This document shows, one piece after another, positions 1 through 4,515 of a DNA stretch of 36,686 nucleotides; within the stretch, counting starts at the first letter, position 1, and every line of letters starts with the position of its first letter. Under the pieces are notes generated by a model, which saw only the letters and a list, made by a program, of their open reading frames with translations, ran no database searches and was not told where the DNA came from. The stretch is from Bryobacteraceae bacterium (GTDB taxonomy: Bacteria > Acidobacteriota > Terriglobia > Bryobacterales > Bryobacteraceae). Where the stretch lies: assembly GCA_013388415.1 (NCBI GenBank), contig JACADU010000138.1:1-36686 (forward strand), in the 5' to 3' direction. The translations under genes were made by a program, and so were the position numbers.

Positions 1-111
1 CACTGTCCTCAAAAGCTTCGTCTCGGGGTCCACGTCCACAAACGCAAACTTCTCGCAGTGGCCAAAGTGCTGGGCCAGCACCCCGTCCGCCATCGGTATC
101 GCTATACGCAT
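1..111 (-). CDS. NifX/NifB-type FeMo-cofactor binding domain protein (partial)
   Basis: Only the first 37 codons are present; the gene runs off the left edge. The protein begins MRIAIPMADGVLAQHFGHCE and continues KFAFVDVDPETKLLRTV. This is the first strand-loop-strand of the dinitrogenase iron-molybdenum cofactor domain (NifX/NifB-C/ORP family, COG1433), including its usual HFGHC-like motif. An AAGGA ribosome-binding site lies about 7 bases before the ATG. Small stand-alone members of this family bind Fe-S or Mo/Cu-S clusters. The gene is divergent from the MauE-thioredoxin gene, and the palindromic operator at 212-230 sits between them, so it may share their control. Family assignment is fairly secure; the bound cofactor cannot be told from this fragment. 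Confidence 0.8.
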   Translation of the reverse strand, partial: MRIAIPMADGVLAQHFGHCEKFAFVDVDPETKLLRTV

Positions 112-211
112 CGGTGATCCTTGCCTTTCAACCGTGTTTTTGAAGCGTCGCAGACTACGGCTTCTTCATGCATCGGGCGCCTGCCTCCGGCAGCCGCGTT
201 GTGATACTGTA

Positions 212-230
212 TAGATGCATTTAACATCTA
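212..230. promoter_or_regulatory. PadR-block operator copy 1
   Basis: TAGATGCATTTAACATCTA, a palindrome with TAGATG/CATCTA arms. It is the first of four copies in this block. A possible -10 box (TACTGT, 205-210) ends one base before it, as at the other three sites. An outer pair TACTGTA (205-211) and TACAGTA (234-240) adds further symmetry. The site lies in the 155-bp divergent gap between the NifX-like gene and the MauE-thioredoxin gene and could repress both. No good -35 partner is visible for the + strand promoter. Confidence 0.85.
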
Positions 231-266
231 GAGTACAGTAGGCTCTAGTCTCTGGTCAACTTCGCT

Positions 267-1196
267 ATGAGCGCGACACTCGAACCTCTTGAAGCCGTTG
301 AGGGCCCGCGTTGCTTCAGCCAGTGGAAAAGACGGGCAGCCGCGGCCTCCGCTTTCGTTCTCGCCGTGTTGTTCCTTGCTTCCGGGCTCTGGAAAGTCTC
401 AGACCTCGACGGCACCTCCCAGCGCATGGTGCAGTCGCTGATACCGGTTTCGTTGAGCATGCCCGCGGCGGCCGCTGTGGCCATCTGCGAGATCTTTGCC
501 GGGCTCTTGCTCCTGTTTCCCAAGACCCGGCGGTGGGGAGCCTGGCTCGCATCACTCATGCTCCTGGCCTTCATGATCTACATCGGCGCTCTCTATGACC
601 GCCTGCTCGGCGAAGACTGCAACTGCTTCCCGTGGATTCAGCGTGTCGTTGGTCCGGGCTTCTTCATCGGAGACGCCGCGATGCTGCTGCTTGCAGCCGT
701 GGCCGCCCTCTGGTCTTCCCAATCCACCGCATGGCGCCTCGCCTGCGCCCTCTTACTTGGCGTTGCGGCGCTCACTGCCGGCTCCTACGCCGTCACGTTG
801 ATCCAGCGGAGCAACGCCGATGTTCCTGACTATGCAACCGTCGACGGGAAGCCACTCAACCTTCGGCAGGGGCATATCCTGCTTTACTTCTTCGACCCCG
901 AATGCTCTCACTGCTACACCGTGGCCCGGGAAATGTCGAAGCAAGACTGGGGTGCGGCCCGCGTCGTCGTCCTCGCCACGCGTGAACCGCAATTCACTCA
1001 GAGTTTCCTCGATGACACCGGACTCCGCGCCGGGATCTCGCCCGATGCGGCCACCCTCCGGAAGATATTCCCTTTCACCGATCCGCCGTACGCCGTCGCG
1101 CTCCATCATGGCAAGGCAGCCGCTCTGTTCAATTCCGGACAGATGGAGGGCGAATCCTATTACGAGGCGCTCAGGCGTCTGGGCCACATCCAATGA
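267..1196 (+). CDS. MauE/DoxX-like membrane protein fused to a thioredoxin-like domain
   Basis: A 309-residue protein. Residues about 25-175 hold hydrophobic helices in the MauE/DoxX arrangement, with the early pattern LFLASGLWKVSDL and a CNC pair (C118, C120) in the loop GEDCNCFPW, where MauE proteins carry redox cysteines. From about residue 180 a soluble thioredoxin-like domain follows with a CSHC motif (C213, C216) in YFFDPECSHC. This suggests electron transfer from an extracytoplasmic thioredoxin domain through the membrane part, as in VKOR- or DsbD-like disulfide relays; that role is inferred. No strong ribosome-binding site precedes the ATG at 267, the first plausible start after the operator. 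The stop overlaps the next gene as ATGA. Confidence 0.85.
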   Translation: MSATLEPLEAVEGPRCFSQWKRRAAAASAFVLAVLFLASGLWKVSDLDGTSQRMVQSLIPVSLSMPAAAAVAICEIFAGLLLLFPKTRRWGAWLASLMLLAFMIYIGALYDRLLGEDCNCFPWIQRVVGPGFFIGDAAMLLLAAVAALWSSQSTAWRLACALLLGVAALTAGSYAVTLIQRSNADVPDYATVDGKPLNLRQGHILLYFFDPECSHCYTVAREMSKQDWGAARVVVLATREPQFTQSFLDDTGLRAGISPDAATLRKIFPFTDPPYAVALHHGKAAALFNSGQMEGESYYEALRRLGHIQ

Positions 1197-2032
1197 TCGA
1201 ACGGCTCCGCATCACTGCTCTGGCCGATAACTCCACCGGCGCTCCGGGCATTCTGGCTGAACACGGACTCTCGTTGCTCATCGAAGCCGGCGACCGCCGC
1301 ATCCTCTTCGACACAGGCCAGGGCAAAGTCCTGGGCGACAACCTCGCCGCGCTCCAGATCGCCCTCGACCCGCTGGACGCCATCGTCCTCAGCCACGGGC
1401 ATTACGATCACACCGGCGGGCTGCCCATCGCCCTCGATCAAGCGTGCCCCAAAGCTGTCTTCGTGCACCCGGCGGCGCTCGAACCGAAGTTCGCCAAACA
1501 GGATCCGCCTCCCTTCCGCTCCATCGGCATTCCCGCGCCCTCGCTCGAAGCGCTCAAAGCCGTGGGGGACCGCATCGTCTGGACCCGCTCCGCGACCGAA
1601 GTCATCCCCGGCGTCTGGTGCACCGGTGAGATCCCCCGGCAGGACGCCGGCAGGAGAGGCGATCCGGTGTTCTACCTCGACGCTGACGGCCGCACGCCGG
1701 ACCCGCTTGCCGATGATCAGGCCCTGGTCGTCGAAACCACCCACGGATTGGCCGTCGTGGCCGGCTGCGCGCACGCCGGCGTCGTCAACACGCTTGACCT
1801 CGTCTGCCGGCTGGCCGGCCGCGGCGAGATTCACGCCCTGGTGGGGGGCTTGCATCTCGGCCGCGCTTCGCAAAAGCAACTCGAGAACACCGCCTCGGCT
1901 CTGGCCCTCCGGCGCCTGGAGTGGATTGCTCCCTGCCACTGTACGGGCATGAATGCTCATGCCTGCCTGCGCGCGCGCTTTCCGGCTCGCGTGCTCGATT
2001 TCTCCGCCGGCTGCAACCTGGTGTTCGAATGA
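1193..2032 (+). CDS. MBL-fold metallohydrolase, COG1237 type
   Basis: A 279-residue metallo-beta-lactamase-fold protein. The core zinc motif SHGHYDHTGG is present (H68, H70, D72, H73), followed by GCAHAGVVNT and GGLHLG, and by PCHCTG near the C-terminus. This pattern matches the COG1237 branch, often labelled 7,8-dihydropterin-6-methyl-4-(beta-D-ribofuranosyl)aminobenzene-5'-phosphate synthase after an archaeal member. That name should not be taken as its reaction here. The ATG overlaps the upstream stop (ATGA) and the stop overlaps trmO, so the three genes are translationally coupled. No signal peptide is seen, so it is cytoplasmic. Members of this branch occur beside COG1433 and TrmO proteins in other genomes, from memory. 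Confidence 0.88.
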   Translation: MIERLRITALADNSTGAPGILAEHGLSLLIEAGDRRILFDTGQGKVLGDNLAALQIALDPLDAIVLSHGHYDHTGGLPIALDQACPKAVFVHPAALEPKFAKQDPPPFRSIGIPAPSLEALKAVGDRIVWTRSATEVIPGVWCTGEIPRQDAGRRGDPVFYLDADGRTPDPLADDQALVVETTHGLAVVAGCAHAGVVNTLDLVCRLAGRGEIHALVGGLHLGRASQKQLENTASALALRRLEWIAPCHCTGMNAHACLRARFPARVLDFSAGCNLVFE

Positions 2033-2565
2033 AAGACGTGAAGTTTGGCAAACTCGTCCTCGATCCCATCGGTTGGATCGAAACTCCATTCCGCGAGCCG
2101 GCCGGCACGCCAATTCAACCCTCCCGTGCGCGAGGCGCCCTTGGCAAGGTCCGGCTATACCCGGGCTTTCACGCCGGCCTCAAGGATATCGAGGGATTCG
2201 AGCGCATCTGGCTCATCTATTGGTTCCACGCGGCGCCGGCCGCCAACTTGCTCGTCACACCGTTTCTTGACACGGTTGAACGCGGCGTCTTCGCTACCCG
2301 CGCCCCGGCCCGCCCGTCCCCGGTCGGGATCTCCGCGGTCCGCTTGCTTGCAGTCAGCGGCGGCGTCCTCGAAGTCGCTGACGTGGACATCGTCGATGGC
2401 GCCCCACTGCTCGACGTCAAGCCGTATGTTCCGGAGTTTGACTGCTACCCCTTGAGCAAAGCCGGCTGGTTTGATGAGACGAAGTCGCGCCGCCGCCTGG
2501 CTGACGAGCGCTTCATGAACAACACTCGCTCCGAGGAGCCGCGCAAGCCCCTGGACACCCCATGA
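2029..2565 (+). CDS. trmO: TrmO-type tRNA N6-threonylcarbamoyladenosine methyltransferase (TsaA/YaeB family)
   Basis: A 178-residue protein starting at the ATG that overlaps the upstream stop (ATGA). Family motifs include GTPIQPS early, then LKDIEGFERIWLIYWFH, ATRAPARPSPVGIS and DIVDGAPLLDVKPYVPEFD. These are hallmarks of the TrmO/TsaA fold, which uses S-adenosylmethionine to methylate t6A37 in tRNA. At 178 residues it is shorter than E. coli TrmO (about 235) and close to archaeal-type members, which lack part of the C-terminal extension. Placement in a metal/redox block rather than with tRNA genes hints at another substrate, but only by context. Its stop overlaps a 21-codon mini-ORF. Confidence 0.88.
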   Translation: MKDVKFGKLVLDPIGWIETPFREPAGTPIQPSRARGALGKVRLYPGFHAGLKDIEGFERIWLIYWFHAAPAANLLVTPFLDTVERGVFATRAPARPSPVGISAVRLLAVSGGVLEVADVDIVDGAPLLDVKPYVPEFDCYPLSKAGWFDETKSRRRLADERFMNNTRSEEPRKPLDTP

Positions 2566-2627
2566 CCAGACTGGTGCTCGACTGCCTCATGATTACCGGT
2601 TTCGTTGCCGGCATGATGCATGCTTGA
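2562..2627 (+). CDS. 21-residue hydrophobic mini-ORF coupled to trmO
   Basis: The ATG at 2562 overlaps the trmO stop as ATGA, the junction used throughout this operon. It encodes MTRLVLDCLMITGFVAGMMH plus Ala before a TGA. The peptide is hydrophobic enough to insert in a membrane and has one cysteine. The stop codon lies inside the -35 box of the next promoter. There is no family to recognise and it may simply be chance; the repeated ATGA junction is the only argument for translation. Confidence 0.3.
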   Translation: MTRLVLDCLMITGFVAGMMHA

Positions 2628-2652
2628 AAGCGGTGAATGCTGAGACTACACT
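2624..2652 (+). promoter_or_regulatory. Sigma-70-type promoter for the SH3-like gene
   Basis: TTGAAA (2624-2629), a 17-base spacer, then TACACT (2647-2652). Transcription would begin near 2659, inside the operator at 2654-2672. This is the best -35/-10 pair among the four operator-linked promoters. Confidence 0.6.
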
Positions 2653-2653
2653 G

Positions 2654-2672
2654 TAGATGCGAGTTACATCTA
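2654..2672. promoter_or_regulatory. PadR-block operator copy 2
   Basis: TAGATGCGAGTTACATCTA, with perfect TAGATG/CATCTA arms and one base after the -10 box. A bound repressor would cover the start of transcription. The downstream gene starts 26 bases after it. Confidence 0.85.
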
Positions 2673-2698
2673 TTGCAACCCGCTCAGGAGATCGGCAG

Positions 2699-3103
2699 AT
2701 GATCAGGCTGTTGTACTTCGTTGTGATACTTGGCAGCTTTGTCCTGCTGTACGGCGTCGGGCGCGTTTGGAAGTTGAAACCCGAGACCAAGTACGATCAC
2801 AGCATTTACATCGGTGAAACCGCCGTTCTCACCATCAAGGGAGGCGGCGAAGTCTGGTTGGCCCATCGCAAGGACGACTGCTACTCCATGAATGTCGCCA
2901 TGGCGCGCAAGGATTCAGAGCATCTGCGCGGGTGTGCGGACGCGCACACCGCTTTCGCCGCGCCCGCGGGGACTTTTGTGAAAGTGATCGGATCCTCCGT
3001 CAGCCGGAAGCACGTCGAGGTCGTCGATGGCCCGCTTGCGGGCAAGAGAGGCTGGGTCGAGTTCCAGTATCTGCGCCCGAGGCAGCCAGGCGAATTCAAT
3101 TAG
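2699..3103 (+). CDS. Membrane-anchored SH3-like domain protein
   Basis: A 134-residue protein. The start at 2699 is chosen because AGGAG lies 8 bases upstream; an in-frame ATG at 2657 lies inside the operator and would precede any ribosome-binding site. Residues 2-18 form one hydrophobic segment (IRLLYFVVILGSFVLLYG), a signal anchor or uncleaved signal. The remainder has short beta-strand-like stretches ending in GPLAGKRGWVEFQYLRP, typical of bacterial SH3-like barrels, which sit in the periplasm and often contact peptidoglycan. Two cysteines (in DDCYS and RGCAD) could form a disulfide. It has its own promoter and operator. The specific function is unknown. Confidence 0.7.
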   Translation: MIRLLYFVVILGSFVLLYGVGRVWKLKPETKYDHSIYIGETAVLTIKGGGEVWLAHRKDDCYSMNVAMARKDSEHLRGCADAHTAFAAPAGTFVKVIGSSVSRKHVEVVDGPLAGKRGWVEFQYLRPRQPGEFN

Positions 3104-3116
3104 CGAAGCGGCAAGC

Positions 3117-3461
3117 TCACCAGAGCGTCCCGCCGCGGTCGTCTCTCAGGCGGACGAGCCTGCCGTTCAGGACAATCGTTGCCGCAATGAGTCTCTCGCC
3201 GTCAAGCCCCATGGCCCGGTATCCCGACACTTGAATGGCGTCTCCCTCCCGAACCGCGATTTCCTTATCGCGGAAGAAACCCGAAGGCGCCAGCCGGACA
3301 AGCGCCTGCTTCTGGCCGGAAGCGACCTTGATTTCCACCATCGCCTCCTCGGGCGTGGCGCCGCGAAGGTAGTTCACTTCCGTCACCTTCCCTTCCAGAA
3401 ATTCCAGGGCTGCCGGCCCTCCTCCATTCACGCGCCCGCACCCGGCGCTCCGGCAGCCCAC
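3117..3461 (-). CDS. OB-fold-like domain protein, C-terminal part of an ORF interrupted by TGA
   Basis: A 114-codon open frame beginning at a GTG directly after a TGA. From about residue 18 it reads LEFLEGKVTEVNYLRG and continues with alternating strands to LNGRLVRLRDDRGGTLW. That layout, including the closing LRDxxGxxLW, resembles small secreted OB-fold proteins. The GTG has no ribosome-binding site of its own. The 40 codons upstream (3462-3581) are in the same frame and supply a ribosome-binding site and signal peptide, so the two parts look like one 154-residue secreted protein broken by a single stop. Possible readings are a nonsense mutation (CGA to TGA), a sequencing error, TGA readthrough, or reinitiation. 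Confidence 0.6.
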   Translation of the reverse strand: MGCRSAGCGRVNGGGPAALEFLEGKVTEVNYLRGATPEEAMVEIKVASGQKQALVRLAPSGFFRDKEIAVREGDAIQVSGYRAMGLDGERLIAATIVLNGRLVRLRDDRGGTLW

Positions 3462-3581
3462 TCAATCGTTGTAGTCCCGGTGGTGAAGATGGCTGCAACG
3501 GCTGCATGAATGCCCGCCCGCTTCCACGCCAGCAGCGAGCCATATGATGGCCGGAAAGGCGAGCCCTGTCATCCACCGCAT
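3462..3581 (-). CDS. Signal-peptide ORF in frame with the OB-fold gene
   Basis: Thirty-nine residues, beginning MRWMTGLAFPAIIWLAAGVE, then AGGHSCSRCSHLHHRDYND and a TGA. AAGGAG lies 6 bases before the ATG, the best ribosome-binding site in the area. The N-terminus is a convincing signal peptide with a likely cleavage after VEA. The mature part is a Cys/His-rich stub (CSRC, HLHH). It starts 13 bases past operator copy 3, which controls it. Either it is a tiny secreted peptide or, more likely, the N-terminus of the OB-fold protein that follows in the same frame. Confidence 0.6.
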   Translation of the reverse strand: MRWMTGLAFPAIIWLAAGVEAGGHSCSRCSHLHHRDYND

Positions 3582-3594
3582 AGCATTCTCCTTC

Positions 3595-3613
3595 TAGATG
3601 TGATCGACATCTA
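3595..3613. promoter_or_regulatory. PadR-block operator copy 3
   Basis: TAGATGTGATCGACATCTA, with seven-base arms TAGATGT/ACATCTA. It lies between the OB-fold gene and the padR-family gene, so it may also provide autoregulation. Read on the - strand, it follows the TATACT box by one base. Confidence 0.88.
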
Positions 3614-3614
3614 A

Positions 3615-3643
3615 AGTATAGTTGCATTGTCAAGCCGCGTCAT
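3615..3643 (-). promoter_or_regulatory. Promoter for the OB-fold gene
   Basis: On the - strand, ATGACG (3643-3638), 17 bases, then TATACT (3620-3615). Transcription would start near 3608 within the operator. A perfect TTGACA at 3633-3628 is only 7 bases from TATACT and probably is not the -35. Confidence 0.45.
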
Positions 3644-3748
3644 CCCCGGTCCGGCGGCGGAACTTAGGTGGAACGTGCATCTATTTCTATCTGGTGCTAT
3701 GCTCTGTTGTTGAAGACACCGCGGCAGCGCGGCGAGCAGGAGGACCGA

Positions 3749-4183
3749 ATGCCCCGACGGATGTGCCCCAGGCATGGGGAGAATCAGCCTTGCACCTGCG
3801 CCATGGGCAATCTTTACCGTTTCGTGGAGCCGGTGGTGCTTTTGCTGCTGAAAAAGAAGGGCCAATCTTACGGATATGACCTTTCCGGCGACCTGCGCGA
3901 TCACGCTCTCACCGACGCGGAGATCGAGCGCGCCGCCCTCTACCGCACGCTCCGCCAGTTGGAGATGAATGGCAACGTCAGGTCCGAATGGGAGACCGAC
4001 AAGGGCGGTCCCGCCCGCCGCGTGTACAGACTCACGCCCCGGGGCGAGAAGCACCTCGAGGAGTGGGCCACGGTCCTCGACCACGTTTCCAAGTCCATGG
4101 CCCGCTTCGTTAAGGACGCTCGCGCGGCCCTCAACAGCCCCGCGGCCCGCAAGAGCAGCGGCGCTGTGCGCCAGGCATCCTGA
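3749..4183 (+). CDS. PadR-family transcriptional regulator with Cys/His-rich N-terminus
   Basis: A 144-residue protein. The ATG at 3749 is chosen for AGGAGG five bases upstream. Residues 1-20 (MPRRMCPRHGENQPCTCAMG) hold C6, H9, C15 and C17, a possible metal or Fe-S site ahead of the DNA-binding domain. From residue 21 a PadR winged helix is clear: FVEPVVLLLLKKKGQSYGYD, then YRTLRQLEMNGNVRSEWE and GGPARRVYRLTPRGEKHL, followed by a short C-terminal dimerisation helix. It is the only regulator in the block and the natural candidate to bind the four palindromes. Known PadR operators also centre on ATGT/ACAT half-sites. Operator copy 3 lies upstream of it, suggesting autoregulation. Confidence 0.88.
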   Translation: MPRRMCPRHGENQPCTCAMGNLYRFVEPVVLLLLKKKGQSYGYDLSGDLRDHALTDAEIERAALYRTLRQLEMNGNVRSEWETDKGGPARRVYRLTPRGEKHLEEWATVLDHVSKSMARFVKDARAALNSPAARKSSGAVRQAS

Positions 4184-4224
4184 TCTTCCTCGTCAGGCAG
4201 ACTGAATGCTCCCCGGGCTTGTGT

Positions 4225-4252
4225 TTGCCGCCAAAAGATGTAAGTATATTAT
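4225..4252 (+). promoter_or_regulatory. Promoter for the one-helix membrane protein
   Basis: TTGCCG (4225-4230), 16 bases, TATTAT (4247-4252). An overlapping TATATT (4245-4250) would match the one-base spacing to the operator seen elsewhere. The region is clearly AT-rich against its surroundings. Confidence 0.5.
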
Positions 4253-4273
4253 AGATGTAAAACACATCTATAA
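4249..4273. promoter_or_regulatory. PadR-block operator copy 4 (most extended)
   Basis: The 19-base core TAGATGTAAAACACATCTA occupies 4252-4270, and symmetry continues outward to give perfect 10-base arms (4249-4258 and 4264-4273) around a 5-base centre. It is the strongest palindrome of the four. A further half-site-like AAGATGTAA lies just upstream at about 4236-4243. The next gene starts 26 bases downstream. Confidence 0.9.
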
Positions 4274-4299: not shown

Positions 4300-4515
4300 A
4301 TGGTTGGCGCGACGCCGCAATTCCTGGACCTGATGACGGGCTCTGTTCTCGTAGCTCTTTGGGCCGGGCTGGGACTTGCCGCGTGCCTCTGGCTCGCCTT
4401 GCTTGGCGGATTGCTGCGGGATGCCGCAGTCCTTTGCTTGCGGCGCCCGCACCATTCAGCCGGCTTCTCGGCCGCCGACCTTCAATTCCTCCGCAGCCTG
4501 CACATCCGCCTCTAA
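4300..4515 (+). CDS. Small one-helix membrane protein
   Basis: A 71-residue protein with a GAGGAG-like ribosome-binding site about 8 bases before the ATG. One long hydrophobic segment covers residues about 14-38 (TGSVLVALWAGLGLAACLWL and on), followed by a basic cytoplasmic-type tail with CLRRPHH and HIRL. It has its own promoter and operator and is the last member of the PadR-controlled block. No family is recognised. The 161 bases after it hold no gene I can support. Confidence 0.6.
   Translation: MVGATPQFLDLMTGSVLVALWAGLGLAACLWLALLGGLLRDAAVLCLRRPHHSAGFSAADLQFLRSLHIRL

Follow-up and report, generated by a model that had tools for sequence, protein, structure and literature searches.

The DNA analyzed here (36,686 nucleotides [nt], herein the window; contig JACADU010000138.1 of GenBank assembly GCA_013388415.1, from a Bryobacteraceae bacterium) encodes a PadR-family regulator at positions 3749 to 4183, together with copies of a 19-base palindrome, TAGATGYAANTTRCATCTA, that stand before gene starts. 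Judged from its sequence, this PadR is likely to be an autoregulated local repressor, with the palindrome as an operator that overlaps the core promoters of six units. The sites and the regulator gene are:

212 to 230: operator site 1, between the divergent nifX and mauE/Trx genes (pattern search and scoring matrix)
2654 to 2672: operator site 2 (pattern search and matrix)
3595 to 3613: operator site 3, facing a minus-strand gene (pattern search and matrix)
3665 to 3683: operator site 5, upstream of padR (pattern search, matrix, and relatives)
4252 to 4270: operator site 4, with perfect 10-base arms (sequence, pattern search, and matrix)
3749 to 4183, plus strand: padR, a winged helix-turn-helix protein of the PadR-s2 type with an N-terminal C-x2-H-x5-C-x-C tail (C6, H9, C15, and C17; PF03551, alignment, and model)

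Searching the window with TAGATG-Y-N5-ACATCTA returned exact copies at 212–230, 2654–2672, 3595–3613, and 4252–4270, the four positions given in a preliminary description of this DNA, and the arms of the copy at 4252 can be read in the sequence as the perfect 10-base dyad it had reported (TTATAGATGT/ACATCTATAA). The distances from these sites to the gene starts are 36, 27, 13, and 29 nt, respectively, within the 13 to 36 bases already noted. That description found no other copy in the window, but a fifth, TAGGTGGAACGTGCATCTA, lies at 3665–3683 with one arm mismatch, 65 nt before the padR start, and its position upstream of padR is conserved among relatives. On a matrix built from the window sites and those of relatives it scores 23.1 bits versus 23.0 bits for the perfect site at 3595; the five window sites span 23 to 30 bits, and the next-best window position reaches 5.3 bits. 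All five, like the consensus of the relatives, contain ATGY-N5-RCAT. With up to three mismatches allowed, the window yields 14 strand-hits versus 0.94 expected, a number reached by 0 of 100 shuffles. Across the organism's own genome (4.35 Mb in 504 contigs, 84% complete) perfect arm matches are confined to the four window copies. The two best one-mismatch copies outside the window, at 17.8 and 13.6 bits, lie within long open frames and were rejected. Perfect dyads can also be terminators or miniature elements, yet it is most improbable that these repeats are mobile or structural (hairpin or terminator) rather than operators: there is no T-run, the center varies while the arms are conserved, the sites precede gene starts, and conservation extends across the clade despite diverged surrounding sequence.

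The proposal that the PadR at 3749 is the regulator finds support in the way that site presence tracks padR in related genomes. In a family survey of 237 genomes, metagenome-assembled and incomplete, of which 34 have a padR ortholog and 203 have none, perfect sites occur in 16 of the 34 and in 7 of the 203 (Fisher p = 1e-10). A separate comparison with a stricter pattern, the 19-mer with at most two mismatches, found it in 25 of 39 genomes with padR and 3 of 39 without (p = 2e-7). Such Fisher values are overstated because the genomes are related (G132, G133, and G135 share a genus). The matches in the three genomes without padR are of chance-level quality, and a reversed control pattern gave almost no matches in the same comparison. 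Sites precede most padR orthologs: at least 10 of 12 arm bases match within 260 nt upstream in 31 of 43 cases versus 28 of 2030 control windows (1.4%), these 28 including a few true sites. When the regions upstream of padR were searched blindly for dyads, with the window left out, TAGATG-N7-CATCTA ranked first, occurring in 11 regions where shuffles reached 2 at most. The matrix contains the relatives' sites; the independent tests are the searches with a window-derived consensus and the blind dyad search. The link between PadR and operator is strongly supported by these sequence comparisons.

Any target of a regulator encoded elsewhere would carry an upstream site too, and position alone is no proof of autoregulation; nevertheless, an arrangement in which another protein binds the palindrome and padR is merely one target is quite unlikely. 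The site is found for the most part in genomes that carry a PadR of this clade, padR heads the site-led genes by a wide margin (36 of 42 genomes versus 13 for the next) and no other regulator recurs, and a genome of another family (G480) has both padR and the site. In that genome, which belongs to the same phylum (L132, L169; C6:127000-150000), a padR ortholog and NifX-like genes are found with a palindrome-led DsrK/Hmc-like run of 7.8 kb that appears to have the DsrK-like gene first and padR last (pieced from two adjoining stretches, with operon structure inferred), which suggests that the whole circuit may have been transferred to it. Some genomes hold three or four PadR paralogs (G068: L079, L080, and L081; G003: L100 and L101), several with their own operator, and cross-talk or specialization among them is possible.

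The promoter elements beside the sites are:

205 to 210, plus strand: weak -10-like TACTGT, abutting site 1
2647 to 2652, plus strand: -10-like TACACT, abutting site 2, with a -35 TTGAAA at 2624 to 2629 and a 17-nt spacer
3615 to 3620, minus strand: -10-like TATACT, abutting site 3
3698 to 3703, plus strand: putative padR -10 TATGCT, 14 nt 3′ of site 5
4245 to 4250, plus strand: -10-like TATATT, abutting site 4

The letters of the -10-like hexamers assigned in the preliminary description are indeed present one base 5′ of each of its four sites, but a -35 is evident only for the hexamer beside the site at 2654, and the arrangement is not universal in relatives. Among non-padR site–gene pairs of the relatives and the window, TANNNT abuts the site on its 5′ side in 9 of 48, versus 2% of random intergenic positions; it is thus enriched, not universal. 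In 17 of 36 padR–site pairs, TANNNT instead follows the operator by 14 to 15 nt (4.8% of random intergenic positions). A -10 at that distance means that the padR operator would cover the -35 region, whereas at the other promoters initiation would fall inside the operator, and both layouts would fit steric repression. Sites of at least 20 bits are intergenic in 60 of 65 cases, intergenic DNA making up 11% of the sequence.

We infer binding, the sign of regulation, and the ligand as follows. A PadR dimer would occupy the palindrome and block transcription, autoregulating at the padR promoter through an operator over the -35 region and acting at the other promoters where transcription would initiate, immediately past the -10-like element. 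Six units, divergent or single, would be controlled: nifX-thioesterase, mauE/Trx-MBL-trmO, the gene for a 134-amino acid protein, a MamX-like gene, padR, and the gene for a 71-amino acid protein. Very probably, PadR switches six neighboring promoters, its own included, through five palindrome copies. A signal would relieve repression, most likely through the conserved Cys/His tail. It is improbable that PadR is instead an activator or a dual regulator at some sites: the PadR-family protein AphA is an activator (PMC3506622) and the padR operator does lie upstream of its -10, but most other sites overlie the presumed -10 or follow it closely, within about 20 to 100 nt of the start codon, which is a repressor position.

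The genes that the operator would control in the window are:

1 to 111, minus strand: 5′ part of a nifX-like gene truncated at the end of the contig (PF02579; ORP/MrpORP C-terminal type)
267 to 1196, plus strand: MauE/DoxX-like membrane protein with a Cys-containing C-terminal extension (PF07291, 8e-23; PF07681, 2e-8)
1193 to 2032, plus strand: metallo-beta-lactamase-fold hydrolase (MBL; PF00753, 2e-14)
2029 to 2565, plus strand: TrmO/TsaA-type S-adenosylmethionine methyltransferase family (TIGR00104, 119 bits versus a cut-off of 93; PF01980)
2700 to 3103, plus strand: 134-amino acid membrane-anchored protein, function unassigned, conserved behind the operator in G206
3117 to 3581, minus strand: secreted Cys/His-rich protein with a MamX/MamS-like C-terminal domain and an in-frame TGA at 3462 to 3464
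4300 to 4515, plus strand: 71-amino acid membrane protein (44% identity to a homolog near padR in G068)

Site 1 lies between nifX on the minus strand and mauE/Trx-MBL-trmO on the plus strand. Positions 1 to 120 of the window overlap 9003 to 9122 of contig C111 (L181, G000), so the two contigs adjoin; nifX is completed there (PF02579, 7e-19; MrpORP, 9e-30) and is followed by a 4HBT/PaaI-like (thioesterase-like) gene. The TrmO/TsaA-type gene overlaps the MBL gene and accompanies ArsP_2 exporters in relatives, which leaves room for a substrate other than tRNA. In the MamX-like gene the TGA separates the signal-peptide part from the C-terminal domain, whereas homologs are single open frames; it may be a nonsense mutation, an assembly error, or recoding. 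Homologs carry Trp near the TGA position, and in G206, the closest relative, the gene seems to be disrupted, which makes a Trp codon change or gene decay simpler than selenocysteine.

The regulator itself belongs to PF03551 (58.7 bits versus a gathering cut-off of 27). In a model built from 25 relatives it has a winged helix followed, after the wing, by a single C-terminal helix (residues 97 through 129), which is the PadR-s2 arrangement (PMC3506622, PMC5050560); W106 in this helix is invariant in the 25-row alignment, and the best Foldseek matches among solved structures are small proteins of the same type. At 144 residues the protein exceeds the usual length of ∼110 because of its tails. Its best NCBIfam match is PhaQ, a poly-beta-hydroxybutyrate-responsive repressor (TIGR02719), but this identity was rejected at 64.1 bits versus a curated cut-off of 139.35, and no polyhydroxybutyrate genes are among the targets seen here. 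LmrR, bcPadR1, and cdPadR1 (PadR-s2) are likewise small winged helix-turn-helix proteins with one C-terminal dimerization helix and a conserved Trp, and are local and often autoregulatory. Their operators have a spacer of 8 to 10 nt or the form TACT-N11/12-AGTA, unlike the five-base spacer, longer palindrome, and TAG outer arms found here; the window PadR also differs in its N-terminal Cys/His tail and in a regulon that is not multidrug export. Published ATGT/ACAT operators have 8 or 10 nt between the half-sites (PMC5050560, PMC3506622), so that, as the preliminary description remarked of the spacing, the window sites depart from the canonical ATGT-N8/10-ACAT.

Preceding the first helix, the clade carries a tail of the form C-x(1,2)-H-x(3-5)-C-x-C, in which the 25-row alignment shows no variation at H9, C15, and C17 and next to none at C6. 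The spacing varies (C-x-H-x3-C-x-C in G164/G167), and a few paralogs (L146, for example) have lost these residues or carry a changed set; the residues nonetheless form a conserved Cys/His ligand set of the kind expected of an iron–sulfur (Fe-S), metal, or persulfide sensor. The non-orthologous PadR proteins inspected (L077, L138, and L140) showed no such tail, and no plasmid copies of the PadR were found.

Targets in relatives extend the regulon beyond the window. In the close relative G206 the counterpart of the window's divergent block contains NifX, DUF5320, two Mrp-type ATPases with ferredoxin domains, and a second NifX, with a coenzyme A (CoA)-disulfide reductase with rhodanese and a thioesterase further on, and an ArsP_2 exporter in the other arm. 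Elsewhere, site-led genes encode NifX (13 genomes), thioesterase-like proteins (9), CoA-disulfide reductase/rhodanese (8), MBL (4), and DsrK-like proteins (2), counts that are approximate since genes were called by a home-made coding model; CysK-like (cysteine-synthase-like) proteins, periplasmic rhodanese, and others were also found. The DsrK-like gene (NF045796, 1e-81; below curated cut-offs) heads an operon that also encodes Hmc-like subunits. Co-occurrence with padR is seen for the NifX subtype in 12 of 13 genomes (p = 1e-10) and for CoA-disulfide reductase/rhodanese in 12 of 25. The single block of the preliminary description holds for the window, but relatives also carry sites away from padR, several of these sites on contigs that do not hold it. 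In G080 and G003 (L102 4487, L177 5564) such sites separate a response-regulator gene from a long gene run, one product of which is multihaem-cytochrome-like.

The content of this regulon points to a sulfur species (sulfide, polysulfide, or persulfide), Fe-S cluster state, or a thiophilic metal as the signal. CstR, SqrR/BigR, and FisR are sulfide/persulfide sensors that control rhodanese, SQR, and persulfide-handling genes via cysteines; they are CsoR-, ArsR-, and NtrC-type proteins, whereas the window regulator is a PadR. The G206 block resembles the orange-protein (ORP)/MrpORP system of sulfate reducers in its NifX-fold orange-protein domain, Mrp ATPases with ferredoxin domains, and DUF5320, and differs in having separate genes, an acidobacterial host, and a PadR operator. 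We tentatively propose that the tail may bind an Fe-S cluster or metal, or be persulfidated, so that this PadR would sense reactive sulfur or Fe-S status and govern a regulon of ORP-NifX, persulfide-reductase, and DsrK/Hmc-like genes in Acidobacteria, the first PadR to do so. It is also conceivable, though short of probable, that PadR represses through the palindrome but has a metal (Cu, Zn, or As) or Fe-S status as its signal and not a sulfur species, its targets being a set for ORP/NifX-type cluster handling and ArsP_2 export. C-x-H-x-C-x-C, with its variable spacing, resembles a metal or cluster ligand set, and the G206 block brings together NifX, Mrp-like ATPases with ferredoxin domains, DUF5320, and ArsP_2; against this, the targets that recur (rhodanese, CoA-disulfide reductase, CysK-like, and DsrK-like) are genes tied to sulfur and not to metals.

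Several observations weigh against the main reading, an autoregulated PadR repressor with a sulfur-linked signal. The tail is disordered in the fold prediction (predicted local distance difference test [pLDDT] about 55), and the sign of regulation is read from operator position. The sulfur assignment draws mainly on relatives: the window targets MBL, TrmO, and MauE-like have no proven sulfur role, and CoA-disulfide reductase was not found in the window genome at the E-value used. About a quarter of padR orthologs are without a recognizable site directly upstream, some of them appearing inside site-led same-strand runs (G480 and G141, the latter with MBL and ArsP_2 before padR), and the overstated Fisher values belong here as well.

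What is known of this protein is its membership of PadR-s2; the operator ATGY-N5-RCAT within a longer palindrome, the tail, and the regulon appear to be new. A literature search, with subscription journals outside its scope, found no PadR paper on sulfane sulfur, rhodanese, or ORP and no PadR described with such a tail, operator, or regulon, and the evidence suggests a regulator, not described before, that senses sulfur or a metal. An uncharacterized PadR clade would thereby have its operator defined, together with an autoregulatory circuit and its regulon, and PadR operators would not be defined by spacing alone. A common signal would tie together the poorly understood NifX/ORP-like, MBL, TrmO, DUF5320, thioesterase-like, MamX-like, and ArsP_2 genes. 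If the tail does sense sulfur or a cluster, PadR would join the few folds so used, and the Acidobacteria would gain a sulfur-response regulator.

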